Origin: Oceanidesulfovibrio marinus
GTDB lineage: Bacteria > Desulfobacterota > Desulfovibrionia > Desulfovibrionales > Desulfovibrionaceae
Assembly (NCBI RefSeq): GCF_013085545.1
Contig: NZ_CP039543.1
Span: 1 to 64,000, forward strand
Reading direction: 5' to 3'
DNA: 64,000 nt
A program made the translations under genes and the position numbers. A model generated the notes under the pieces. It was given only the letters and a program-made list of their open reading frames with translations. It did not search any database and was not told where the DNA came from. Positions 48,687 to 60,921 of the stretch are shown here, piece after piece. Within the stretch, counting starts at the first letter, position 1, and each line of letters opens with the position of its first letter.

Positions 48687-49559
48687 ATGCGATATCGGAT
48701 TGGTGCAATGCACATTGGCCAGATACTGGATACCGCCTTCGAGGTGTTCAGGGACCACAGCAAAACATTACTGGCGATCACCGCGGTGGTCTTTGGTCCG
48801 TATCTGATACTGTACTTTGGATCGGCATTCTCTGGTGTGTGGCCTGTCTTTAAAATCATTAGTGCTTACAAGGCCGGTGCATGGAACACGTATCGCGAGC
48901 ATTACTGGGAGTATGCTATTGGATTGGGAGTGTTCACATTCTTGCATATGGTATTCACAGTATATACTAGAGGAGCACTCGCGATCGCAATGGCAAGCAT
49001 GTATCTGAATCATCCTGTATCGACATCAACAAGCATACGTTTTATGGCATCAAGATGGTGGCCGATACCCAAAACATTTTTCATGATGTTGCCTTATTAT
49101 ACTTGGTCAAGTATTGGCATGATATTTGTTTTATTTTCTATTGCCATGTTAGGCAATGGTGTGACGGGCAATGTGTTGATGTTCACAATATTTATATTTG
49201 TAGGAACCGCGATGACATTGGTGTCGTCAATTGCTTATGGAAGGCTGTGTCTGGCATTCAATGTGGTAATTCTCGAAGATTTATCTGGGTGGAAAGCGAT
49301 AAGACGTAGTGTGTCACTTATGGGCGGTTCCTGGTGGCAAGGAGTAGTCCTTTATCTTGCGCGCTTTGTGTTAGGTCTAGTGTTGGTCGGTGCTATGAGA
49401 TTTATTCCGTCGGATTATGCAATATTTATGTTGGGTGTGTTTATAAATATCCTACTGTTGTCATTCTTTATAGCAGCAAGCGTCGTTCTCTACTTCTCGA
49501 CTCGCAGCAAACGCGAAAATTTCGACATCGAGTACATGGCGCAGTACGCGACGGCGTAA
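48687..49559 (+). CDS. Tandem membrane paralogue 1 (GPDPase-membrane-domain-like)
   Basis: 290 residues from the ATG at 48687, chosen to match the others' MxYRIG opening and its AATGGGGACC leader. About six hydrophobic segments. Shared landmarks: the Arg/Tyr opening, SRWWPIPKT, VVILEDLSGWKAIRRSVSL and LYFSTRSKRENFD near the end. It is clearly AT-richer than its neighbours and has the most divergent tail. The protein resembles the membrane domain of glycerophosphodiesterase-type proteins; function unknown. Confidence 0.75.
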   Translation: MRYRIGAMHIGQILDTAFEVFRDHSKTLLAITAVVFGPYLILYFGSAFSGVWPVFKIISAYKAGAWNTYREHYWEYAIGLGVFTFLHMVFTVYTRGALAIAMASMYLNHPVSTSTSIRFMASRWWPIPKTFFMMLPYYTWSSIGMIFVLFSIAMLGNGVTGNVLMFTIFIFVGTAMTLVSSIAYGRLCLAFNVVILEDLSGWKAIRRSVSLMGGSWWQGVVLYLARFVLGLVLVGAMRFIPSDYAIFMLGVFINILLLSFFIAASVVLYFSTRSKRENFDIEYMAQYATA

Positions 49560-49584
49560 CCCCATAGAGACAGGAGACAGGGGC

Positions 49585-50481
49585 ATGCAATACCGGATCG
49601 GGGAGCTGCGTCTGGGCGATCTTCTGGACGTCGGCTACAATGTGTTCAAGGACAATTACAAGCCATTGCTCGGCTTGGCGCTTATGGCCTTTGTTCCTGT
49701 CTTGCTGGTCTTTGGTGTGGGGGCGTTGTTCGGCGGCGTGCCTTTGATCAGTCAGGCCGATTTCTTTCCACAGCCGGGAAACCCGCCGCCGGACCCGAAG
49801 TTCCTCATGCAGAACTTCCATGCGATGTTCGCCACGATGGCGGCATCCAGCCTGGTCATGAGTATTTGCGCGCTCTTTGCCCACGGCGGCATCATCCTGG
49901 CCGTCGCCAGAGGGTACACTGGTCAGCCCATATCGGCCGGTGTGGCCCTGCGCTACAGTCTGTCGCGGTGGTGGCCGCTCATCAAGACCACGATCATCTT
50001 CGTGCTCACCATACTCCTGGTCTTTGGGGCGATTATCGGGGCGTTCCAGTTGTTCTCCGGGTTGGTTGGCAGGCACAACCACTTCTTTTTGATGATGCCA
50101 GTATTCGTCGTAAGCGTTGTTGCCATGGCGCTGGTTTTCCTGCGGTACGTGCTGTCCCTCACCGTCGTCATTCTGGAGGGCGTGTCAGGATTCGCCGCGT
50201 TGAAGCGTAGCGCCACGCTTATGAAGGGGGCCTACGGCAAGGCATTTCTGCTGCTGGTCCTCGTGAGCATCGCCAGCATGATCCCTTCGGGCCTTCTGAA
50301 CGTCCTGGTAATGATTCCTGGCGTGCCGTTCTTTCTCGTTGCCATGGGCGGTGGCATGTTCATGCAGATGATCATGATGGCGTTCGTCACCACGGTCCTG
50401 ACGATTCTCTACTTCTCCAACCGCTGCAAGCACGAGAACTTCGACCTGGTGCTTCTGGCCGAGGAGGCGGAGGAGATATAA
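49585..50481 (+). CDS. Tandem membrane paralogue 2
   Basis: 298 residues with about six hydrophobic segments. Opening MQYRIGELRLGDLLDVGYNVFKDNY, middle LRYSLSRWWPLIKT, then VVILEGVSGFAALKRSATLM, and tail SNRCKHENFDLVLLAEEAEE. The gap to the first paralogue is 25 bp and the leader is AGAGACAGG. GC-rich like the general genome. Membrane protein of unknown function. Confidence 0.8.
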   Translation: MQYRIGELRLGDLLDVGYNVFKDNYKPLLGLALMAFVPVLLVFGVGALFGGVPLISQADFFPQPGNPPPDPKFLMQNFHAMFATMAASSLVMSICALFAHGGIILAVARGYTGQPISAGVALRYSLSRWWPLIKTTIIFVLTILLVFGAIIGAFQLFSGLVGRHNHFFLMMPVFVVSVVAMALVFLRYVLSLTVVILEGVSGFAALKRSATLMKGAYGKAFLLLVLVSIASMIPSGLLNVLVMIPGVPFFLVAMGGGMFMQMIMMAFVTTVLTILYFSNRCKHENFDLVLLAEEAEEI

Positions 50482-50615
50482 GCCCCGACAGGACGTTGGG
50501 ACAAAGTCCAAGGCCTCGCAATACGTGTGGTGTGCGTCTATCGTAGCCTGGCATGCTGTCATGACACATTCGGATGGGTAATTCAGTCGCACCAGAAGAA
50601 TAAGGGAAGGGGACC

Positions 50616-51494
50616 ATGCAATACCGGGTTGGAGAAATGGGTGTTGGCGAGGTGTTCGATGTGTCGTTCAATGTGTTCAAGGACAACTACAAACCGATCG
50701 CAACGGCGGCGGCGCTGACCTTGCTGCCGTATATGCTGCTGGTCGTGGTAACCACGCTTGGCAATTTTGTGCCCCGGATCGATCAGATTCCCGAGCTGCA
50801 TACGCCGGGTACGTCTACCAGAGTCATGATCGAGGCCATGGCTCCAACTGTCCTGCTCTCAATGGTGACTGCATTCTTAGGCTATGTGAATGCCGTGTTG
50901 ATGTGCGGCGTCTTATACATCATCAGCGCAAGTTATTACCTGGATACACCTATGCGCCCACTCGTTGCTATACGGCACACGCTGTCGCGTTGGTGGCCCG
51001 TGCTGAAAACATCCCTGATGGTGATGCTGCTGATGTTTGGCGTTATGGTTCTTTTTGGGGTGGCCATTTTTGCTCTCAATATGTTGATAACAAGATCAGT
51101 AGGGAATGTTTTGCAAGCTGTGATCATGGCTGCAGTAGGCGTGCTGTTTTTAGTGGTCATGGCATTCATATATTTACGCTATCTTCTTGGGTCGAATATA
51201 GTGATGCTCGAAGGGATATCCGGACGAAAAGCATTGTCGCGTAGTGCGAATCTGATGCGCGGCGTATACTGGAAAGGCTTTGTTATCGTTCTGATACTGT
51301 TCATTGGTGGCGCAGTCATTGGATATGGAATGTCGCTCATTCCGTATGAACCAGTCGCCTTGTTCGTTCGCCTGGCCGTGAACATCAATCTCTACATGTT
51401 CGGAGCCATCGTAGGCACCATTCTCTACTTCTCCAACCGCTGCAAGCACGAGAACTTCGACCTGGTGCTTCTGGCCGAGGAGGCGGGGGAGTAA
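50616..51494 (+). CDS. Tandem membrane paralogue 3
   Basis: 292 residues. Opening MQYRVGEMGVGEVFDVSFNVFKDNY, SRWWPVLKT, then VMLEGISGRKALSRSANLM and a tail SNRCKHENFDLVLLAEEAGE. Base composition is mixed: the middle is AT-rich while the last 65-70 bp match copy 2 exactly. Ribosome leader AAGGGGACC. Function unknown. Confidence 0.8.
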   Translation: MQYRVGEMGVGEVFDVSFNVFKDNYKPIATAAALTLLPYMLLVVVTTLGNFVPRIDQIPELHTPGTSTRVMIEAMAPTVLLSMVTAFLGYVNAVLMCGVLYIISASYYLDTPMRPLVAIRHTLSRWWPVLKTSLMVMLLMFGVMVLFGVAIFALNMLITRSVGNVLQAVIMAAVGVLFLVVMAFIYLRYLLGSNIVMLEGISGRKALSRSANLMRGVYWKGFVIVLILFIGGAVIGYGMSLIPYEPVALFVRLAVNINLYMFGAIVGTILYFSNRCKHENFDLVLLAEEAGE

Positions 51495-51664
51495 GGGAAC
51501 GGCGATGGCGATCCCCCTGTGCGCGTTGCCGCGATGTGTAGCCGCCTCCAAACGGTCACAAACCGCCGTGCGGTTTTACAATGAGTGTGTTTTAGCCTAC
51601 ATAGCGGTGCAGTAGGTGGGTATTCCAACCCACGGAAGCAACGGCGTAGCCATGGAGGGAAGCC

Positions 51665-52546
51665 ATGCAGTACCGGGTAGGTGAGTTCGGCGTGGGGCAG
51701 TTGCTTGACGTCGCGTTCAACGTGTTCAAGGACAACTACAAGTCGATGCTCATCGTGGCGGTGCTGGCGTTCCTGCCGGTCACGATCATCACCGTGGCCG
51801 TACTGCTGGGCGGTTTGCTGCCCATGTACAAGCAGCTTCTGATGTTCAACGCCACAGGGGCCATGCCCGACCCCACGGTCATGTTCGCCACCATGGCGCC
51901 TTTCTTCGCGGCCGTGTCTGTGCTCGGCATCCTCTGGTATCTCACCACCATCATCTCCGAAGGCGCCATCACATTTGTCACGGCCAGCAGCTACCTGGAC
52001 AACCCGGTGGCCCCGCGCGAGGCCCTGCGCTACTGCTTCTCGCGCTGGTGGGCCCTGCTCAAGACCGCGCTGCTCATCGCGCTCATCTTCATCGGCATTT
52101 TGTTTGTCGGCGGCATATTGGTAGCGCTGGCCATGGGCGGGATTTCGCTGATTGCAGGCGGCCTGGTGGGCGGCCTGATCTCCTTCGTGCTTATCGTGGG
52201 GCTGTTCCTCGCCGCGATCATGGTTTTTCTACGCTACTTCCTGGCGCTCAAGATCGTCATCCTCGAAGGGGTGGCCGGCCGCGAGGCCCTGGGCCGCAGC
52301 GCGTTCCTTATGAAAGGGACCTACGGCCGGGCCTTTATCCTGCTTCTGTTGCTGGGCGTGGTCAGCAACATCATTGGTACGGCGGCCAACCTCATCCCCT
52401 TCGTGCCCGTGGCCATCGTGCTGAGCATCGCCCTGCAGGTGGCCATCTACGTGTACACCACCTCGGTCTGGACCATGTTCTACTTCTCCAACCGCTGCAA
52501 ACACGAGAATTTCGACCTCGTGCTCCTGGCAGAGGAAGCGGAATAA
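51665..52546 (+). CDS. Tandem membrane paralogue 4
   Basis: 293 residues. Opening MQYRVGEFGVGQLLDVAFNVFKDNY, middle SRWWALLKT, VVILEGVAG-like KIVILEGVAGREALGRSAFLM and tail SNRCKHENFDLVLLAEEAE. GC-rich. Starts 170 bp after copy 3 and ends 6 bp before the DUF4129 gene, linking the array to the DUF4129/MoxR cluster. A repeated local duplication is the simplest origin of the four genes. Confidence 0.8.
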   Translation: MQYRVGEFGVGQLLDVAFNVFKDNYKSMLIVAVLAFLPVTIITVAVLLGGLLPMYKQLLMFNATGAMPDPTVMFATMAPFFAAVSVLGILWYLTTIISEGAITFVTASSYLDNPVAPREALRYCFSRWWALLKTALLIALIFIGILFVGGILVALAMGGISLIAGGLVGGLISFVLIVGLFLAAIMVFLRYFLALKIVILEGVAGREALGRSAFLMKGTYGRAFILLLLLGVVSNIIGTAANLIPFVPVAIVLSIALQVAIYVYTTSVWTMFYFSNRCKHENFDLVLLAEEAE

Positions 52547-52552
52547 CGGCGC

Positions 52553-53257
52553 ATGGCGGCAAGTGGAACCATGACGCCGGAGACGGCGCGGCAGCTTGCC
52601 GAGACCGTGCTCTCCCGCGAGCATTTCGAGCTCGGCAAGGAAGCTGGGAAAAGCGCTATCGCAACATGGCTGGCCGACCTGCTGGAGCCCGTGAGCCGGT
52701 TCATTGCCAAGATTTTTCGCTGGTTGATCGAGTTCGGTACCCACGTCCACGAGGCGAGCCCGTTCTTGTACTGGCTCCTCGTGGGTGGTCTCACGCTGCT
52801 GCTCATCGCGCTTATCGCGCACATCGCGCTCACCTTCCGCCAGGCGCTGCGGGAACGTCAGCGCATCGGAGCCCTTTCCTGGGCCGAGGCGGCGGAGGAG
52901 GGGCCGGATCTCCTGGAAAAACGCGCCCGCGCGGCGGCCGACACAGGCGACTACTTCCTCTCCCTCAGCCTTTTGTTCAAGGCCGGGGTGCTGCGCCTGG
53001 AGATGCGCGACGACCGGCCGTTCCAGCCTGCCTACACCAACCGTGAGTACCTGCGCCGCTACGAGAAGGAGCCGGCCCATGCGCCCCTGGCAAAGCTCGT
53101 GGGGCTGCTGGAGAAATGGTACGCCGGCGAGCCCATCGGCAAGAGCGAGCACAGCGAAGGCGCGGCCGCCTACACGAGCCTGCGCAAGCTCGCGAAATCG
53201 TCTAACCGCGAACACCAGGCCCAGGCGCATCAGGCCCAAACGCTTCCGGCCGGCTAG
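52553..53257 (+). CDS. DUF4129-like domain membrane protein
   Basis: 234 residues with one membrane segment (about 75-97, WLLVGGLTLLLIALIAHIAL). The C-terminal domain (about 120-205) has the DUF4129 pattern of a helical repeat with ARAAADTGDYFLSLSLLFKA and LRRYEKEPAHAPLAKLVGLL. Proteins of this type are found beside MoxR, DUF58 and DUF4350 genes. Ends 18 bp before the DUF4350 gene. The N-terminal 20 residues are disordered-looking. Confidence 0.72.
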   Translation: MAASGTMTPETARQLAETVLSREHFELGKEAGKSAIATWLADLLEPVSRFIAKIFRWLIEFGTHVHEASPFLYWLLVGGLTLLLIALIAHIALTFRQALRERQRIGALSWAEAAEEGPDLLEKRARAAADTGDYFLSLSLLFKAGVLRLEMRDDRPFQPAYTNREYLRRYEKEPAHAPLAKLVGLLEKWYAGEPIGKSEHSEGAAAYTSLRKLAKSSNREHQAQAHQAQTLPAG

Positions 53258-53275: not shown

Positions 53276-55060
53276 ATGTTCAAACCGGAACGGGTCATCA
53301 TCGCGGCCATTGTCCTGGCCATCATCTGCCTGACAGGCATGCTGCTTTCCATGCTCCAGCCCGAAACCCACGAGGGCCGCGGCTACGATACCTTTGGCGT
53401 GGAGCCCCACGGGCTGCGCGCGCTGTACGAGACCGTGGAGCAGGCCGGGTTCAACGTGGAGCGCGGGTTCGCACCACCGCACGCGGCCATGGCCGCGGCT
53501 GGAAAGGACGGCTGGCTTGTGCTCTGGCGGCCGGACCCCATGTGGGTCTCCCGCGACGAGCGCCAGCTCGAACGGCTCGGCGAATGGGTGGAGTCCGGCG
53601 GCGCCGTGATCTTCGCGCCGGTCTTCGATCCGGAGGCGTACTTCTACCAGCCGTGCCACTGCGAGGACGAGGAGGATGAAGCGTCCGCCGGGCAGAACGC
53701 CACGGCCGGGGGCAACGCCACGGCTCAGAGCTCAAATGCGACTGCGGAGTCCGGAAACGCCACATCGCACGACGCCAACGCAACCACAGAGGCGGAGAAC
53801 GCCACGGCCAAGGCAGAGCGACTGAAAAAATGGCGCGAAGAGATGAAGGAGCGGCAGGCCAAGCGCTTCCACGCCCTGGAGCCGCTCAAGCGTATGGGCA
53901 TTGCCGTGACGCGGCTAGGTGTGACCGACTATGCAGGGGCCATGGCGCGGGAGCGGGAGAAGATCGAGGGGTATCGCGAGAGGTTGCGTGAGAAGCGGGA
54001 GCAATGGGAGAAGTCCAAGGAGGAGATGCGGCGCAAGAACCTGGGGCAGGATGAGCCGTCGGAAGCGGAGTCCGGCAACGCCACAGAGGATGCGCCCGAG
54101 AGTCCACGTCCCATACGCAAACCGCCGCCGGACCCGAACACGACAGCCCTGAATGCTCCGGCGGAAGAACCGATAATCCTGGCGGCGCAAGGCATCGACA
54201 AGAAAAAGCGCGAGTACGACTGGTACGATTACAGGCGCTTCCTGCGCACCCTGGATCTGGACGCGCGCATGGAGCGGACCCTGACCCGGACGGTGACACC
54301 GGAAGGGGAGCTGGGCTCGCTCTGGCAGGGGCTGGAGCAGGTCTCCATAGCCGATGAGACGCAGTGCCTGCTGCCGCCGGCCGAAGGGGAGCCGGAGCCG
54401 GACGGCGTGCTGGCATTCGAGGCGCACAACGGAACCACCGCGTACCTGGCTGCGGCGTATCGCAAGGGCAAGGGGCTTGTCGTAGTGGTGGCCGATCCGC
54501 TGCTCCTGGCCAATGGGTTGCTGGCCAGGCCCGGCAATGCGTACACGGCGCTGGGACCGCTGGCTCATTATGATGGGCAGCGCGGCGAAGTGGTGTTCGA
54601 CGAGTTTTTCCACGGCCTCACGGTGCGCGGTCGGCCTGTCTGGCTGCTCACGCGGCGGCCGTACGGTCTGGTGGCTCTGGCGCTGATTCTTGCCGCCGGG
54701 CTGTGGTGCTGGCGCAGCGGTTCGCGGCTGGGACCGCCGCTACCGGCCATCGTGCCCACGCGGCGCAGTGTGGAGGAGTATCTGGAGGCCATGTCCGGGC
54801 TGTTCTTGCGCGGTGAAAAGCAGTCGTTCCTCGCGCAGGAGCTCAAGGCGGGCGTGCTGTGGTGGCTGGGCCGGCGCTATCGCCTGGGATACGGCGAAGA
54901 GGATCTGGAGGCCGTGTCCAGGGCCATGGCCCGGCGCGACCCGGAGGGCGCGGAACGGTTGCAATCCGCTGTTCATGAACTGGAAACGTTGGCCGCCCGG
55001 CGTAAGCCCTCGGTGAAGAGGCTCGTTGCCGCGGCCAGGGAGTTGACCCGATGTCTGTGA
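53276..55060 (+). CDS. DUF4350-like protein with sequon-rich periplasmic loop
   Basis: 594 residues. One membrane segment at about 7-27 and a second near 462-480 (LVALALILAAGLWCW) put the large middle region outside the cytoplasm. DUF4350 features include ERGFAPPH after the first segment and GEWVESGGAVIF. A low-complexity insert (about 137-181) has Asn-Ala-Thr at 141, 147, 154, 161, 168 and 175, followed by a charged coiled coil (about 180-260) and another Asn-Ala-Thr; two further N-x-T sites lie in 290-430. The C-terminal cytoplasmic part (about 485-594) is helical. It sits in the DUF4129-DUF4350-MoxR-DUF58 set, of unknown function. Confidence 0.75.
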   Translation: MFKPERVIIAAIVLAIICLTGMLLSMLQPETHEGRGYDTFGVEPHGLRALYETVEQAGFNVERGFAPPHAAMAAAGKDGWLVLWRPDPMWVSRDERQLERLGEWVESGGAVIFAPVFDPEAYFYQPCHCEDEEDEASAGQNATAGGNATAQSSNATAESGNATSHDANATTEAENATAKAERLKKWREEMKERQAKRFHALEPLKRMGIAVTRLGVTDYAGAMAREREKIEGYRERLREKREQWEKSKEEMRRKNLGQDEPSEAESGNATEDAPESPRPIRKPPPDPNTTALNAPAEEPIILAAQGIDKKKREYDWYDYRRFLRTLDLDARMERTLTRTVTPEGELGSLWQGLEQVSIADETQCLLPPAEGEPEPDGVLAFEAHNGTTAYLAAAYRKGKGLVVVVADPLLLANGLLARPGNAYTALGPLAHYDGQRGEVVFDEFFHGLTVRGRPVWLLTRRPYGLVALALILAAGLWCWRSGSRLGPPLPAIVPTRRSVEEYLEAMSGLFLRGEKQSFLAQELKAGVLWWLGRRYRLGYGEEDLEAVSRAMARRDPEGAERLQSAVHELETLAARRKPSVKRLVAAARELTRCL

Positions 55061-55260: not shown

Positions 55261-55521
55261 ATGAACGATATCGAATGGACCACCCGAGCACGCCGCCAGT
55301 TTCGCCGTATTGACGCTGCACAGCGTCCGCGCATCCTGGAAGCTGTCGAGGGCCTGACCATGTGGCCGGATACGCATCAGGACATCAAAAGCCTGCAAAA
55401 CCGAGAAGGGTACAGGCTGCGCGTGGGCCGTTACCGGGTTTTGTTCACGACCCATGAAGGCGGCGAGGTCCGCATCATTCGAATTGAGGAGGTCAAAAAG
55501 CGCGATGAACGAACCTATTAA
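55261..55521 (+). CDS. RelE/ParE (HigB-like) toxin
   Basis: 86 residues with the RelE/ParE core: an N-terminal helix pair, SLQNREGYRLRVGRYRVLFTT and EVRIIRIEEVKKR. Members are ribosome-dependent mRNA endonucleases or gyrase poisons. It precedes its antitoxin, the HigBA order, and overlaps it by 17 bp. The region before it (55061-55260) is AT-rich. Confidence 0.85.
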   Translation: MNDIEWTTRARRQFRRIDAAQRPRILEAVEGLTMWPDTHQDIKSLQNREGYRLRVGRYRVLFTTHEGGEVRIIRIEEVKKRDERTY

Positions 55522-55867
55522 GGGCGAACCGATTGAGCATCAGGTGCTGCGGGGACCGGACGGCGAGCCTTTATACGCCGTCATCCCCTGGGACGTTTTT
55601 GTGGAGCGGTTTGGGGCCGCTGCCGAGCTGGACGACGAGGTAACCATCCCACATGCGGTCATCAAGATCGAGGAGACGCAGGGCTGCTCGATCATCCGCG
55701 CCTGGCGCGAGCACCTCGGCCTGACTCAAGCAGGTCTTGCAGAGCGGATGGGCATATCCCGCGCCGCCTACGCACAGATGGAGGCCGTGGGCGCCAACCC
55801 CAGGCCGACCACATTGAAGAAGATCGCAGCGGCCATGGGGGTTAACTGGCGGCAGATACAAGATTGA
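55505..55867 (+). CDS. HigA-like antitoxin with XRE HTH
   Basis: 120 residues from the ATG at 55505. An N-terminal region (about 1-55) includes a strand-rich toxin-binding segment (VLRGPDGEPLYAVIPWDVF). The C-terminal XRE helix-turn-helix (about 65-115) has LTQAGLAERMGISRAAYAQMEA and RPTTLKKIAAAMGV. It should neutralise the preceding toxin and repress the pair. It ends 179 bp before the MoxR gene, a gap with AT-rich DNA that can hold a separate promoter for the downstream genes. Confidence 0.88.
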   Translation: MNEPIKGEPIEHQVLRGPDGEPLYAVIPWDVFVERFGAAAELDDEVTIPHAVIKIEETQGCSIIRAWREHLGLTQAGLAERMGISRAAYAQMEAVGANPRPTTLKKIAAAMGVNWRQIQD

Positions 55868-56046: not shown

Positions 56047-56994
56047 GTGTCTGTGAAGCAACTACGCGACCGCATCCAGCAGGAGGTGGGCAAGGTCGTC
56101 TTCGGCCAGGAAGAGGCCGTGGACTACTCGCTCGCGGCGCTGCTGTCCGGAGGGCACGTCCTTCTGGAAGGCGTTCCCGGCACGGCCAAGACGCTGCTGG
56201 TCAAGGCGCTGGCCGCCACACTGCAGCTCGCCTTCGGCCGGGTGCAGATGACCCCGGACAAGCTGCCCGGCGACATCACCGGCACGTCCATCTACCGCGA
56301 GGACATCAAGGAGTTCGAGTTCAAGCGCGGGCCCATCTTCACGAACTTCCTGCTGGCCGATGAGATCAACCGCGCCTCGGCCAAGACTCAGGCCGCGCTG
56401 CTGGAGGCCATGCAGGAGTACGGCGTAACCCACGACGGCGTGACCCATCCGCTGCCCGAGCCATTCCTGATGTTCGCCACGCAGAACCCGGTGGACCAGG
56501 AGGGCACGTACCCCTTGCCCTTGGCGCAGCAGGACCGCTTCATGTTCAAGGTGATAGTGGGCTACCCGGACGCCGAGGCCGAAGAGCGGATGCTGACCGA
56601 GCACCACGTGGGCAGCCCGCACCAGCGCCTGCAGGACCTGGGCATCACCCCCGTGGCCGGCGCCAAGCACGTGCTCCAGGCCAGGGAGATCATCCGCAAG
56701 ACATACGTGCGCGAGGAGCTGGTGGGGTATGTGCGCCGGCTGGCCGCCGCCACCCGGCAGGACGAGAGCCTGCTGGTGGGAGCCTCGCCGCGCGCGGCGC
56801 TGATGTGCCTGATGGGGGCAAAAGCCGTGGCGCGGTTCTCGGACCGCGACTATGTGACCCCGGACGACGTGAAGTACGTGTTCCGCGCCGGGCTGCGGCA
56901 CCGCGTGGTACTCAGCCCCTCGTCCGAGCTGGAAGGCGGCGACGCCGACTCCGTGCTGGGCATGATCCTGGACCGCGTGGAGGTCCCGCGGTGA
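56047..56994 (+). CDS. MoxR-family AAA+ ATPase
   Basis: 315 residues starting at GTG. Walker A GVPGTAKT (42-49), Walker B LLADEIN, sensor region ATQNPVDQEGTYPLPLAQQDRF, and the later SPRAALMCLMGAKAVA motif. MoxR ATPases act with DUF58/VWA partners in assembly or folding of envelope or enzyme complexes. Its TGA stop overlaps the GTG of the DUF58 gene, so the two are translationally coupled. Upstream lies the toxin-antitoxin insertion. Confidence 0.93.
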   Translation: MSVKQLRDRIQQEVGKVVFGQEEAVDYSLAALLSGGHVLLEGVPGTAKTLLVKALAATLQLAFGRVQMTPDKLPGDITGTSIYREDIKEFEFKRGPIFTNFLLADEINRASAKTQAALLEAMQEYGVTHDGVTHPLPEPFLMFATQNPVDQEGTYPLPLAQQDRFMFKVIVGYPDAEAEERMLTEHHVGSPHQRLQDLGITPVAGAKHVLQAREIIRKTYVREELVGYVRRLAAATRQDESLLVGASPRAALMCLMGAKAVARFSDRDYVTPDDVKYVFRAGLRHRVVLSPSSELEGGDADSVLGMILDRVEVPR

Positions 56995-58352
56995 TACGCC
57001 CCTTGCGGGGAGTACGGCCAGGCGTTCGCGCCGTGGCCGCGCTGCTTGGGCTGGCCGTCATTGCGGCGGCCGGGTTTGCCGCGCCGTGGCTGGATACCGT
57101 GGTCTGGTGGGGCGTCGCGCTTGTCACCGGCCTCATTGCGGAGGATGCCGTGTTGGGTCGGCGGCGGGCCGAGAACGTGCTGGCCATGCTGGAGGCGCCG
57201 GCCGTGGTGGGCCGCGGCCGCGTCTTTTCCGTCTCCCTGATCCTGCACAACGAGGGCGAACGTACCGTGTCCGGCGCGGTGCGGGTGGAAGCACCCGAGG
57301 TGTTCCGGGTTCTGCACGGGTCCCGGCCCGGACGGCCTGGGCTATGGACAGTGCGGTTCAGGCTGCCGGCCGGGGAGCAGCAACGCTTGACCGCCCAAGC
57401 CGTGGTGGACGTGCGCGGCAAGGTAACGCTGGGGCCGGTCTGGCTGCGCATTCCAGGTCCGCTGGGGTTTGCCGAGCGCCGGGTGCAGGTGGCCGCGACG
57501 GCCGAAGTGCGAGTTTTCCCGGAAACGCTGGCCGAGCGGGAGGGCTTTCAGGATATGCGCGGGCTGCTGACAGCTCCCGAGGCCAAGACGCCCACGCGCT
57601 GGCGCGGCGAGGGGCTGGATTTCGAATCCATCACGCCGTACGAGCGCGGAGACGAGGAGCGGCACATCGACTGGCGCGCTACGGCGCGCACGGGACGGAT
57701 CATGGTCCGCCGCTATCAGCTGGAGCTCAACCGCGAGGTCTTTGTGGTGCTGGACGCCGGCCGGTTGATGGGCTCCGACACAGGGGAGGGCACCAAGCTG
57801 GATCGCGCCGTGGACGCCGGGCTGGTGCTCTGCCGTTCGGCCATCGACCATGGCGACAAGTGCGGTGTGGCCATCTATGACAGCCAGGTGCGCGGGTTCC
57901 TGCCGCCTCAGGTGGGGCCGGCCGGGTTCCGGGCCATTGTGGAGAACGTCTACGACACCGAGTGCCTGTTCCGGGAGAGCGACTTCGCCTCCATCTTTGC
58001 GCAGTTCCAGGCCAGGCAGCGCAAGCGCGCGCTGGTCATCGTGCTCTCGGACATCGTGGACGAGGCCGGCAGCCGCTCCTTACGGGAAGCATTGCACCGT
58101 CTGGCCAAGCGGCACCTCGTGGTCTTTGCGGCGCTGCGTACGCCGCTCATCGAAACGGCGTTTCGTCGGACAACGGACTCCTACCGCGGGCTGGCGCGTC
58201 AGGCCGTGGCCAGCAGGCTGCTGCAGGAACGGGAGCGCGGGCTGCACATGCTGCGCCGGTTGGGCGTGCACGTGCTGGACGTGGAGCCCTCGCAGCTCAC
58301 GGTGAGCCTGGTGAACCGCTACGTGCAGCTCAGAGAGTCGGGACGGCTGTAG
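56991..58352 (+). CDS. DUF58 domain protein
   Basis: 453 residues from GTG at 56991 (GTGA overlap with moxR); the open frame upstream is out-of-frame MoxR sequence. Two hydrophobic segments (about 10-45) anchor it. The DUF58 core holds GLDFESITPYERGDEERHIDW and the vWA-like LDAGRLM in place of a classical DxSxS metal site. The C-terminal part is vWA-like (ALVIVLSDIVDE). It is the usual partner of MoxR. The last 23 bp overlap the convergent SpoIIM gene. Confidence 0.88.
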   Translation: MIRPLRGVRPGVRAVAALLGLAVIAAAGFAAPWLDTVVWWGVALVTGLIAEDAVLGRRRAENVLAMLEAPAVVGRGRVFSVSLILHNEGERTVSGAVRVEAPEVFRVLHGSRPGRPGLWTVRFRLPAGEQQRLTAQAVVDVRGKVTLGPVWLRIPGPLGFAERRVQVAATAEVRVFPETLAEREGFQDMRGLLTAPEAKTPTRWRGEGLDFESITPYERGDEERHIDWRATARTGRIMVRRYQLELNREVFVVLDAGRLMGSDTGEGTKLDRAVDAGLVLCRSAIDHGDKCGVAIYDSQVRGFLPPQVGPAGFRAIVENVYDTECLFRESDFASIFAQFQARQRKRALVIVLSDIVDEAGSRSLREALHRLAKRHLVVFAALRTPLIETAFRRTTDSYRGLARQAVASRLLQERERGLHMLRRLGVHVLDVEPSQLTVSLVNRYVQLRESGRL

Positions 58353-59436
58353 CCGCTGCCGGCATCAACACGCCCTGCATCCGGCGGGCCTTCTTCTCCC
58401 GCCACTCATACACGAACCCCATGGCGAAGTAGCCGGCCATGGCCACGGCCACGGAGCCGGCAAAGGCCAGGCGCTCCCACGTTTCCATGTGGCTCTGGCG
58501 CAGAAAGCTCTCGATGATCGCGGCAAAGAAGAGCAGCATGCCCACGCCCAGCAGGATTTTGGCCGCTTCCTTGCCGGCCGCGGTGAGCTTTGTGATGCGC
58601 GACTCCCCGCCCGGGTTGATCACGGCTGCGCCCAGGGCAAGGCCGGCCCCGCCGCAGAGCATGATGGCCGTGAGCTCGGGCACGCCGTGCGGCAGTATCC
58701 AGGCCCAGTACTCCGCGTGTATGCCCTGGCTGAGGTGTACATAGCTGAACGCGCCGATCATCATGCCGTTGTAGATGATGAGCAGCAGGGTGGGCACTGC
58801 GGCCAGGATGCCCACGGCGAATGAGAGGATGCCGATGGTGAAGTTGTGGCGGAAGAGGAACGAGGCGAAGAAGACCTTGTGTTCGCTGCTCAGGTCGCGG
58901 CCGGAGCGCAGGGACTCGATCAACTCCTCGCGCGGAGTGCCGGGCAGCCTGGTCTCCTGGGCCGGCAGGATGGCGTAGGCGGCCATGGGGTCGGCGTTGG
59001 AGGCGTAGTAGCCGAACAGGCCGCCGCCGATGAAGATGACGGCGGAGACGAGGTGGAAGATCCAGGTGCGCGCCACGGCGCGGGGAAAGCCCGTGGCCAG
59101 GAAGAAGAGGATGCCGGCGATGGGCTTGCGCTGGGGCGGTGCGTAGATGACGCCGTGGGCGGCCGCTGCAAGGTCGTTGAGGTAGGCCACGAGGGCCGGG
59201 TCCTCGGTGCGGGTGGCGGCTCTGGCAAGCAGGGTGGTGGTGCGGCGGTAAAGCACATCCAGCCGGGAAAGCTCGTCCGCGGTCATGCGCGCCGGGCCCT
59301 TCTTGCGGGCCTTTTTCACCAAAGTTTCAAGCTCTTGCCACGAAGCCCTGTTTCGGAGTAGGGAATCAGCGGCGGGATCGAACCGCTCCGGAACATCCTG
59401 GGCCTCGATCCCGCTTTCTGTCGCGTCCACGTGCAT
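58330..59436 (-). CDS. Stage II sporulation protein M (SpoIIM/DUF95) family
   Basis: 368 residues. A soluble helical N-terminal region (about 1-100) precedes five or six hydrophobic segments (about 105-345), including YYASNADP after the first and the family core YWAWILPHGVPELTAIMLCGGAGLALG. This family is frequently encoded with MoxR, DUF58 and RDD proteins in non-sporulating bacteria, so the sporulation name is historical. It is divergently transcribed from the RDD gene and convergently overlaps DUF58. Confidence 0.85.
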   Translation of the reverse strand: MHVDATESGIEAQDVPERFDPAADSLLRNRASWQELETLVKKARKKGPARMTADELSRLDVLYRRTTTLLARAATRTEDPALVAYLNDLAAAAHGVIYAPPQRKPIAGILFFLATGFPRAVARTWIFHLVSAVIFIGGGLFGYYASNADPMAAYAILPAQETRLPGTPREELIESLRSGRDLSSEHKVFFASFLFRHNFTIGILSFAVGILAAVPTLLLIIYNGMMIGAFSYVHLSQGIHAEYWAWILPHGVPELTAIMLCGGAGLALGAAVINPGGESRITKLTAAGKEAAKILLGVGMLLFFAAIIESFLRQSHMETWERLAFAGSVAVAMAGYFAMGFVYEWREKKARRMQGVLMPAAATAVPTL

Positions 59437-59522: not shown

Positions 59523-60374
59523 ATGGCCGGACCGACAGTTACCTTTGAAACTCCGGAAAACGTGCAGGTCAGCTACGAGCCTGCCGGTCTCGGCACGCGC
59601 TTCATCGCGTGGTTCGTCGACTCTCTCCTACTATCCATTCTTATGTTTGTCATTTTCGTTGCCGTTATTGCGGCGGGGATAATGACGAGCGAGGTGGCCG
59701 ACTTCCTGAGAGAGTACCTGGGCCCGGTGTTCGATAAGCTTCTGGACATGCTGGGCCAGGGCGAGGCCTGGGAGAGCGGACCGGTCATGCAGATGGTCTT
59801 CTGGGCTGTCTACTCCGTACTCATGGGCTTCAGCTCGTTTCTCTACTTCGGGCTGTTCGAGTACATGATGGACGGCCGCACCCCCGGCAAGAAGTGGCTC
59901 CACATCCGCGTGGTCAAGGACCGCGGCTTCACCCTGGACGCCGGCAGCATCTTTCTGCGCAACATCTTCCGCATCATCGATCAGATCACCCTGCTGTGGA
60001 TCGTGCCGGTGGTCTCGCCCAAGTCGCAACGCCTGGGCGACATGGTGGCCGGCACCCTGGTGGTGCGCGACAAGCCGCGCAAGCTCTCCCGCGTGCGCGA
60101 AGAGCTGCTGGCCAGACCGCAGCACGCCATCCGTTTTCCCCTGGACGGCGCGCAGCTCGCCCGGCTGGACGAGAAGGTGCTGCAGGCCGCCGAGCAGTAC
60201 CTGGACCGCTACGACGATCTGAGCGCGGAGCAGCAGGAAGCGCTCGCCCTGCGGCTCTCCGCCTCCATGGCGCAACGCATGGGCCAGGAGCCGCCGGAAC
60301 GGGGCATGGCCCTGGTTTTTCTGGTGGATGCGCTCTCGCAGGTGTTCAAGCGCCGCGCCCGCCGGCTGGCGTAG
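59523..60374 (+). CDS. RDD family membrane protein
   Basis: 283 residues. The RDD domain (about 20-175) contains AGLGTRFIAWFVDSLLL, the YMMDGRTPGKKWLHIRVV motif and QRLGDMVAGTLVVRDKP. A cytoplasmic helical tail (about 180-283) follows. Three or four hydrophobic segments. RDD proteins are of uncertain function, sometimes linked to ion exchange. An 86-bp divergent gap to the SpoIIM gene probably contains both promoters. It completes the DUF4129/DUF4350/MoxR/DUF58/SpoIIM/RDD cluster. Confidence 0.85.
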   Translation: MAGPTVTFETPENVQVSYEPAGLGTRFIAWFVDSLLLSILMFVIFVAVIAAGIMTSEVADFLREYLGPVFDKLLDMLGQGEAWESGPVMQMVFWAVYSVLMGFSSFLYFGLFEYMMDGRTPGKKWLHIRVVKDRGFTLDAGSIFLRNIFRIIDQITLLWIVPVVSPKSQRLGDMVAGTLVVRDKPRKLSRVREELLARPQHAIRFPLDGAQLARLDEKVLQAAEQYLDRYDDLSAEQQEALALRLSASMAQRMGQEPPERGMALVFLVDALSQVFKRRARRLA

Positions 60375-60510
60375 GACGCGGCCGATATCCGGGCTTTTCC
60401 CGAAGCGTCGAATAGGGTACTCTGTACCCGCCAACCAATGCCGGACCGCCCAATGGCCCGGGCGCGGCTTCCGGCGGCCGTTGACCCGCGGGCCGCTTCC
60501 GGAGCGGAAT

Positions 60511-60921
60511 ATGCCTCTAGTCGAATGGAGCCCCAGACTGCACATCGGCATCGCCACGATTGACGAGCAGCATGAGTACCTCACCGGCCTTATCAACAAG
60601 CTGTATGCGGCGCACACCGACGGGAAGGACCGCGAAGCCCTCCAGCCCATAGTCAACGCCATCAGCGACTACGCCCAGTACCACTTCTCCGAAGAGCAGA
60701 AGCTCATGGAGCAGTACGAGTACCCCACCTTCGAGGGGCACAAAGCCCTGCACGACGACTTTATCGTCAAGTCCGTGGAATATCTCTTCGACTACCTCAA
60801 CGGCAAAGAAGAAGAGCTCTCCACCGAGATGCTCGACTACCTGACCGACTGGTGGCTCAACCACATCAGCAGGGTCGATCAGGAGATGGGGAACTACCTC
60901 AAATCCAAAGGCGCGAGCTAG
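60511..60921 (+). CDS. Bacteriohemerythrin
   Basis: 136 residues from the ATG at 60511 with GGAGCGG just upstream. All seven di-iron ligands are visible: His21, His58, Glu62, His77, His81, His118 and Asp123, in the four-helix order of hemerythrin. It binds O2 and probably serves as an oxygen scavenger or sensor for the cytoplasm of an anaerobe. The frame upstream is open but is not protein-like. It ends before a repeat block. Confidence 0.95.
   Translation: MPLVEWSPRLHIGIATIDEQHEYLTGLINKLYAAHTDGKDREALQPIVNAISDYAQYHFSEEQKLMEQYEYPTFEGHKALHDDFIVKSVEYLFDYLNGKEEELSTEMLDYLTDWWLNHISRVDQEMGNYLKSKGAS

Follow-up and report, generated by a model that had tools for sequence, protein, structure and literature searches.

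Positions 48,687 to 52,546 of the window, by which we mean the whole stretch of DNA analysed (64,000 nucleotides of Oceanidesulfovibrio marinus, contig NZ_CP039543.1, positions 1 to 64,000), hold four tandem genes for membrane proteins of a single family, here called M. Our leading, still tentative, reading is that they arose by tandem expansion of M, one component of a conserved MoxR cassette of the inner membrane, in which the last copy, w4, would be the ancestral core subunit and w1–w3 would be retained, fast-evolving variants in a lipid-contacting machine. Copies in the window are named w1–w4, and those in G001, the other of the two known species of the genus, g1–g3. The four genes, located by open reading frame (ORF) and alignment, are as follows.

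48687..49559, + strand: w1, M-family membrane protein, 290 residues, AT-shifted and fast-evolving
49585..50481, + strand: w2, M-family membrane protein, 298 residues; starts 25 nt past the end of w1
50616..51494, + strand: w3, M-family membrane protein, 292 residues; AT-shifted body, 3' end identical to that of w2
51665..52546, + strand: w4, M-family membrane protein, 293 residues; conserved copy adjoining the cassette, 68% identical to g3, predicted CysZ/CTL-like model

A preliminary description of this DNA had proposed four tandem same-strand membrane paralogues, which is confirmed by the ORFs, by search E-values and by the single array in the genome. All four are intact ORFs of 290–298 residues with pairwise identities of 25–45%, and in sequence searches w3 matched w4 at an E-value of 3.3e-66, w2 at 4.8e-50 and w1 at 1.5e-38. 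On sequence grounds they are true paralogues, diverged tandem copies of one inner-membrane protein. Searches of the 4.76-Mb genome with w1 and PF10110 found no M copy outside the array, a tblastn search of a plasmid collection with w4 gave no match at 1e-5, and a scan of genome contigs with seven M proteins yielded 17 pattern matches, none of them confirmed. The alignment bears out the MxYRxG opening described for all four copies and corrects two other motifs: the middle one is SRWW-x3-KT rather than SRWW-x2-KT, and the block given as ILEG/D-x-SG-x3-A is [IM]LE[GD]-x-[SA]G-x2-A (MLEG in w3, AG in w4). The CKHENFD tail ascribed to every copy is present in w2–w4, while w1 ends in SKRENFD. Seven signature residues (G11, E201, R211, S212, L215, Y273 and R277 in w4 numbering) are present in w1–w4 and also kept in g1 and g3.

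The copies are unequal. Between the two species w4 and g3 are 68% identical, compared with 33% for w1 and g1, and no clear one-to-one counterpart could be assigned to w2, w3 or g2; the corresponding identities are 91% for MoxR and 77% for SpoIIM. Third-position GC, taken as the difference from the cassette neighbours, averages -0.026 in 56 single-copy M genes (standard deviation 0.048, lowest -0.19), a set in which loci L060 and L146, probably one stretch, are both counted. The four lowest values among 70 M genes belong to w1 (-0.42), g1 (-0.38), g2 (-0.33) and w3 (-0.28), with w2 at -0.07, w4 at -0.02 and g3 at -0.01. In three of the AT-shifted genes the 3' tail of 23–25 codons departs from the body, with third-position GC of 0.92 against 0.60 in w3, 0.92 against 0.47 in g2 and 0.79 against 0.46 in w1, whereas w4 and g3 show no such rise (tails 0.78 and 0.79, bodies 0.89 and 0.87). 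The w2 and w3 tails are identical at 23 of 23 comparable codons, compared with 32 of 81 in the body, and their 3' ends share an exact run, counted as 67 nt in the alignment. Gene conversion is the likely cause of this identity, although codon-level selection may be responsible instead. Two further features bear on the differences among copies.

50412..50478, + strand (approximate bounds): 3' end of w2 holding the exact 67-nt run common to the w3 3' end, from codon comparison and alignment
51571..51610, + strand: promoter-like block ahead of w4, identical in G001 at 29 of 40 positions, in both species 54 nt from the start codon

Shuffling gave at most 24 identities in 60 trials for the block ahead of w4, and among the seven upstream pairs compared, a set outside which the 25-nt gap before w2 falls, only w4/g3 exceeds its shuffles. 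A promoter consensus scan was uninformative, with 6 sites compared to 3.4 expected; among them is one + strand site in the w3–w4 gap and another within w3. From the conserved block, w4 and the cassette probably have their own promoter, and by sequence comparison w4 is the constrained copy.

Despite their divergence, w1–w4 and g1–g3 all keep open frames. Neutral change was simulated from w4 with an AT bias and no insertions or deletions, with 300 runs per identity level, and the frame stayed open in 5 runs at 68% identity, 1 at 45%, and none at 41% or 27%. At the divergence of w1–w3, an average of 7 to 11 stops would be expected, an overstatement to some degree, as the simulation places all divergence on one branch from w4 when part belongs to w4 itself. 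Since neutral runs almost never stay open, w1–w3 are probably under some selection, and the earlier statement that the four copies are retained stands to that extent.

The cassette that follows the array in the window has these members.

52553..53257, + strand: DUF4129 protein (Pfam match below cut-off; position as in other cassettes)
53276..55060, + strand: DUF4350 protein (PF14258, 1.8e-14)
56047..56994, + strand: MoxR AAA+ ATPase (PF07726, 1.5e-59)
56991..58352, + strand: DUF58 (vWA-like) protein (PF01882, 5.8e-29; start by analogy with G001, mechanical ORF from 56805)
58330..59436, - strand: SpoIIM membrane protein (PF01944, 8.8e-34)
59523..60374, + strand: RDD membrane protein (PF06271, 1.3e-16)

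MoxR, DUF58, SpoIIM, RDD and DUF4350 thus occur together, all over their Pfam cut-offs. DUF4129 reaches 18.4 bits against a cut-off of 24.8, and an iterated profile built from the window gene fills the same position in other loci. That the array lies directly ahead of a DUF4129/DUF4350/MoxR/DUF58 set had been recognized; to this set SpoIIM, on the opposite strand, and RDD can be added.

A SpoIIM search in named genomes yielded 104 loci, and in the best 80 we mapped the cassette parts with iterated profiles and mechanical gene calls; this sample leans to SpoIIM relatives of the window cassette. A cassette was counted as complete when DUF4129, MoxR, DUF58, SpoIIM and RDD were all present and each flank extended over more than 1.5 kb, which applied to 52 of the 80 loci. 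M adjoins 42 of these, in several phyla: as one copy in 40, as two in L072 (Rhodospirillales) and as three in L079 (Methylocapsa). The remaining 28 loci include 14 with one M, 1 with two (L100, Synergistaceae) and 13 with none. M stands ahead of DUF4129 in five Planctomycetota, five Bacilli and three loci labelled Myxococcota as well as in the window genus, head to head with DUF4129 in Sphingomonas and relatives, and behind RDD in most other loci. No other cassette part was seen as an adjacent pair in the maps, save a DUF58 split into two overlapping pieces (L086), which singles out M as the amplified part. Judged by gene neighbourhood, M is the usual extra membrane component of a widespread MoxR/DUF58 cassette, and the proposed link between the array and the MoxR/DUF58 set holds across phyla.

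In a genome search for M within the family, six of 149 genomes, including the window genome, had a match: four genes in the latter, three in G001, two adjacent genes each in G015 and G078 (three matched pieces each), and one each in G086 and G122. In the phylum, where at most six candidates were scored per genome, 75 of 395 genomes had a match, and four copies occurred only in the window genome; adjacent pairs were seen in G405, beside a complete cassette, and in G537, with no cassette seen. The G015 and G078 pairs are orthologous to each other, and the next gene in G015 encodes a class V aminotransferase.

Cassette order and strand pattern in the window are those of the five Planctomycetota and five Bacilli loci, with the differences that M is amplified to four and that a ParE-like/helix-turn-helix (HTH) pair separates DUF4350 from moxR. 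The pair consists of a ParE-type toxin gene (55261-55521, +; PF05016, E 2e-8) and beside it an HTH gene (HTH_3, +) ending at 55867. Because DUF4350 and moxR overlap in G001, this toxin-antitoxin-like pair was either inserted in the window or lost in G001. A hemerythrin-domain gene (60328-60921, +) overlaps the end of the RDD gene. Two genes upstream of the array encode a Na+/H+ exchanger and a TrkA/Usp protein. In G001 an exchanger with a very similar sequence occupies the same place, and a 496-residue ORF stands at the expected TrkA/Usp position. Both species also carry a second, different MoxR-DUF58 pair elsewhere (L066 9238-11650 in the window genome, L065 8089-10553 in G001), and single-sequence searches saw no M, SpoIIM or RDD near it in 20-kb stretches.

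In a tree of M (73 rows), w1–w4 and g1–g3 form one clade (support 99/96). Next to it stand the G015/G078 pairs (99/96) and then five Planctomycetota M genes (96/91; their own group 94/86). The pairing of w1 with g1 (98/89) and of w4 with g3 (100/97) places at least one duplication before the species split. The extra copies of L079, L100 and L072 each form their own clade (100/99, 100/99 and 100/89), indicating that tandem amplification occurred separately several times. Some branches of this tree are long (2.44 for g2), and w2, w3 and w4/g3 part at an open fork. Redundant loci were noted, L116 (Candidatus Mailhella, Desulfovibrionaceae) being equal in a three-protein tree to L061, a locus of G112 in the window's family, and L146 to L060 by length and map, and L146 was dropped from the trees. 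By the identity of L116 and L061, the window probably belongs to a member of the Desulfovibrionaceae. Import of w1 and w3 from an AT-rich source is disfavoured: both fall inside the clade of w4 and g3, and w1 and g1 are both AT-shifted.

A combined SpoIIM, MoxR and DUF58 tree (72 rows), made by a quick method and including several rows of odd composition, places the genus with the same five Planctomycetota (support 100), away from Mailhella and G122. Window SpoIIM is 51–54% identical to the five Planctomycetota loci and 29–38% identical to the other 75. The simple reading of these comparisons would be a transfer, in either direction, between a Planctomycetota-like bacterium and the window lineage. 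Two distant cassette versions occur in the one family: the window genus (the window and L014) has a Planctomycetota-like version, whereas that of Mailhella and G122 (L060, L061, L091) lies near Synergistota.

What kind of protein is M? None of the window copies reaches the 29.6-bit cut-off of GPDPase_memb (PF10110): w1 gives no row, w2 11.9, w3 19.9 and w4 16.1 bits, and no protein of the window genome passes it. The kinship becomes detectable through relatives. We used a 44-member alignment made of 38 of 51 listed M stretches, a list that itself left out 13 loci, and six genus copies. At E≤1 the 44 proteins give 28 matches to PF10110 (best E 8.5e-8), 20 to UPF0259/YciC (PF06790; 8.2e-8), 16 to DUF975 (PF06161; 4.2e-5) and 4 to DUF7847 (PF25231; 4.3e-4), and 18 match the NCBIfam YciC model at E≤0.01 (best 1.9e-9). 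The window proteins are the weak end of this set. By profile comparison M is therefore related, below threshold, to GPDPase_memb, UPF0259 (YciC) and DUF975. The GPDPase_memb match covers the C-terminal half of M, including the E...RS signature; M differs in lacking an attached phosphodiesterase domain.

AlphaFold models were obtained for w3 (7 sequences; predicted local distance difference test, pLDDT, 77.9; predicted template-modelling score, pTM, 0.72) and w4 (44 sequences; pLDDT 93.4, pTM 0.87). The w4 model contains three units, each with a short helix and two long helices forming a transmembrane hairpin, the short helix of unit 3 being broken in two. Profile comparison of the units scored 33.5 for 1 and 3, compared with 16.1 for the best of 60 column-block shuffles, and more weakly 17.3 for 1 and 2, compared with 14.5. 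In VIA-align searches CysZ was the top match, with Z of 17.9 for w3 (227 aligned, root-mean-square deviation 3.9) and 15.6 for w4 (224 aligned, 4.0), so that nearly the whole CysZ chain superposes (227/227 and 224/226 residues). The SLC44 proteins CTL1 and PNS1 superpose over 240–257 residues, with Z for w3 and w4 of 15.1 and 14.7 (PNS1) and 14.7 and 14.4 (CTL1), and 13.5–15.1 over all PNS1/CTL1 rows; unrelated chains start at 5.8 (w3) and 7.3 (w4). M has three pairs of helices and three short helices, the layout given for CysZ and the CTL core in PMC13160678 (in part), which also reports the likeness of CTL/PNS1 to CysZ (DALI Z 9.7). CTL1 and PNS1 differ from M in having four further helices (PMC13160678, in part), in being eukaryotic and in lacking a sequence match to M; CysZ differs in showing 9% identity in the superpositions, and M has the MoxR cassette as its neighbours. 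The near-full CysZ coverage, the agreement of two paralogues and the gap in Z together argue for a real shared arrangement, and as a test of overall fold the models indicate that M has a CysZ/CTL-like fold. The function of the family, initially given as unknown, is thus narrowed by sequence to the GPDPase_memb/UPF0259/DUF975 superfamily and by model to this predicted fold.

The model also suggests an orientation. Lysine plus arginine averages 11.5 on one side of the membrane, which has 94 residues in w4, compared with 1.1 on the opposite side, which has 45. The bias runs the same way in 44 of 44 members, and the rich side holds the short helices and both ends. The positively charged side of a membrane protein is, by the positive-inside rule, cytoplasmic, which would place the short-helix side in the cytoplasm. 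The conserved charged motifs of M lie on one side of the model.

A CysZ- and choline-transporter-like shape suggests a membrane- or lipid-handling role for M. In our leading reading, M would be a membrane-embedded, lipid-contacting core, the DUF58 protein would dock on its cytoplasmic side and recruit the MoxR ring, and the ring would use the energy of ATP to build or remodel the membrane complex, in a manner comparable to RavA-ViaA at the inner membrane. The copies w1–w3 would have been kept as variant subunits or as alternative partners, able to stand in for w4 or to work alongside it; these copies would evolve fast and drift to AT, their C-terminal tail being kept by selection and, in w2 and w3, by gene conversion. 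RavA and ViaA form a two-gene operon that is not known to include M, SpoIIM or RDD. The likeness is one of functional analogy, as it too combines a MoxR ATPase with a vWA protein at the inner membrane and, in the available part of PMC9489729, targets specific phospholipids and alters the membrane. SpoIIM genes adjoin vWA and AAA+ genes, as in Makarova et al. (2015), and membrane remodelling has been proposed for the SpoIIM family (PMC5898192, in part). Taken together, these neighbours point to a membrane machine. Outside subscription papers, no study of M in a MoxR/DUF58 cassette and no paper joining DUF4129, MoxR and DUF58 was found. In mycobacteria, Rv3689 is presumably an M protein. The Rv3689-Rv3695 region is a MoxR/DUF58/SpoIIM/RDD cassette with the same parts, and the equivalents of Rv3689 and Rv3691-Rv3695 are listed together in an expression table, under consecutive M. 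abscessus numbers (PMC8191103, in part). A bolder proposal, to which we give little credence, is that the array is a diversification device: a CTL/CysZ-fold core of a MoxR-driven membrane machine would be repeatedly amplified in tandem, with membrane bodies diverging fast while gene conversion keeps the cytoplasmic docking tail uniform, letting a single ATPase cassette run several interchangeable cores, each suited to other lipids, substrates or external pressures.

Several observations weigh against the core-plus-variants reading and the fold on which it draws. Foldseek matches were weak (best E 0.027 for w3 and 0.27 for w4), TM-scores to CysZ and CTL1/PNS1 were mostly 0.3–0.6, and the better model, w4, gives the lower CysZ Z (15.6 vs. 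17.9). According to a note in the aligner, a best Z of 14 was typical of five mostly helical models that lacked a clear match, so part of the CysZ/CTL likeness may come from a common helical arrangement; the unit 2/3 comparison, at 19.0, is below its best shuffle, 20.6. Sequence kinship with CysZ is unsupported: w1–w4 gave no PF07264 (CysZ, EI24) row at E≤10, hhalign against 13 EI24 proteins gave a probability of 4.2%, and the 44-protein M profile found only chance-level rows among PDB sequences, neither CTL nor CysZ appearing at E≤10. The lipid role is argued by analogy, and we found no experimental work on the M family in the same literature. Ten of the 52 complete cassettes show no M within the stretch examined, and the G015 and G078 pairs (L015 9175-10856; L064 3791-5064) have no cassette in 19 kb and 5 kb, respectively. 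Copies scattered in relatives, which the preliminary description had named as evidence against its view, are absent within the genus; outside it, these two pairs stand without a nearby cassette. Finally, AT drift and fast change fit weakly constrained genes equally well.

This last point leads to the main rival, that a single ancestral M, w4, was duplicated and that redundant w1–w3 are losing constraint and will be lost. One M copy is the rule elsewhere, w1, w3, g1 and g2 are AT-shifted and diverge fast, and the sister species has only three copies, with g2 very divergent; even so we consider slow decay unlikely, because seven frames are open where neutral change predicts 7 to 11 stops, the signature residues are retained in w1–w4, g1 and g3, and the supported w1/g1 pair makes that copy older than the species split. 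Decay of all but one ancestral gene, also named beforehand as a refutation, is accordingly half borne out, the extra copies having drifted without being broken.

It is very improbable that each of the four copies is a fixed and distinct part of a single ring or complex, distinct subunits being one option in the preliminary description. Four intact, adjacent, same-strand copies with shared ends would suit an obligate hetero-oligomer, and CysZ has been proposed to be a hexamer (PMC13160678, in part), yet G001 has three copies, two of them with clear counterparts, only w4 has a well-conserved orthologue, and the 40 of 52 complete cassettes with exactly one M need only one. Base composition, abnormal in w1 and w3, and rate also differ sharply among the copies, and the conserved promoter-like block stands only ahead of w4. 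Least probable, in our view, is that M is a CysZ-like permease for sulfate or another anion whose copies would differ in substrate. It would suit a sulfate-reducing family, the M model superposes on CysZ, no EI24 gene was found in the window genome, and the Na+/H+ exchanger and TrkA/Usp genes lie upstream; against it, M has no sequence match to CysZ and accompanies MoxR, DUF58 and SpoIIM in many bacteria, and it has been argued that CTL proteins, which share the fold, do not act as transporters, a functional likeness to CysZ being described as hard to reconcile (PMC13160678, in part).

MoxR/DUF58/SpoIIM/RDD cassettes are widespread, and we found no solved job for them. If M has a CysZ/CTL-like fold with a cytoplasmic motif face, a concrete and testable model becomes available, and, if true, it would link a bacterial machine to the eukaryotic CTL/SLC44 proteins, whose own function is being reopened (PMC13160678, in part). 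With one copy under constraint and several evolving fast, this genus would then offer a natural series for asking which region of M docks the ATPase and which is free to vary.

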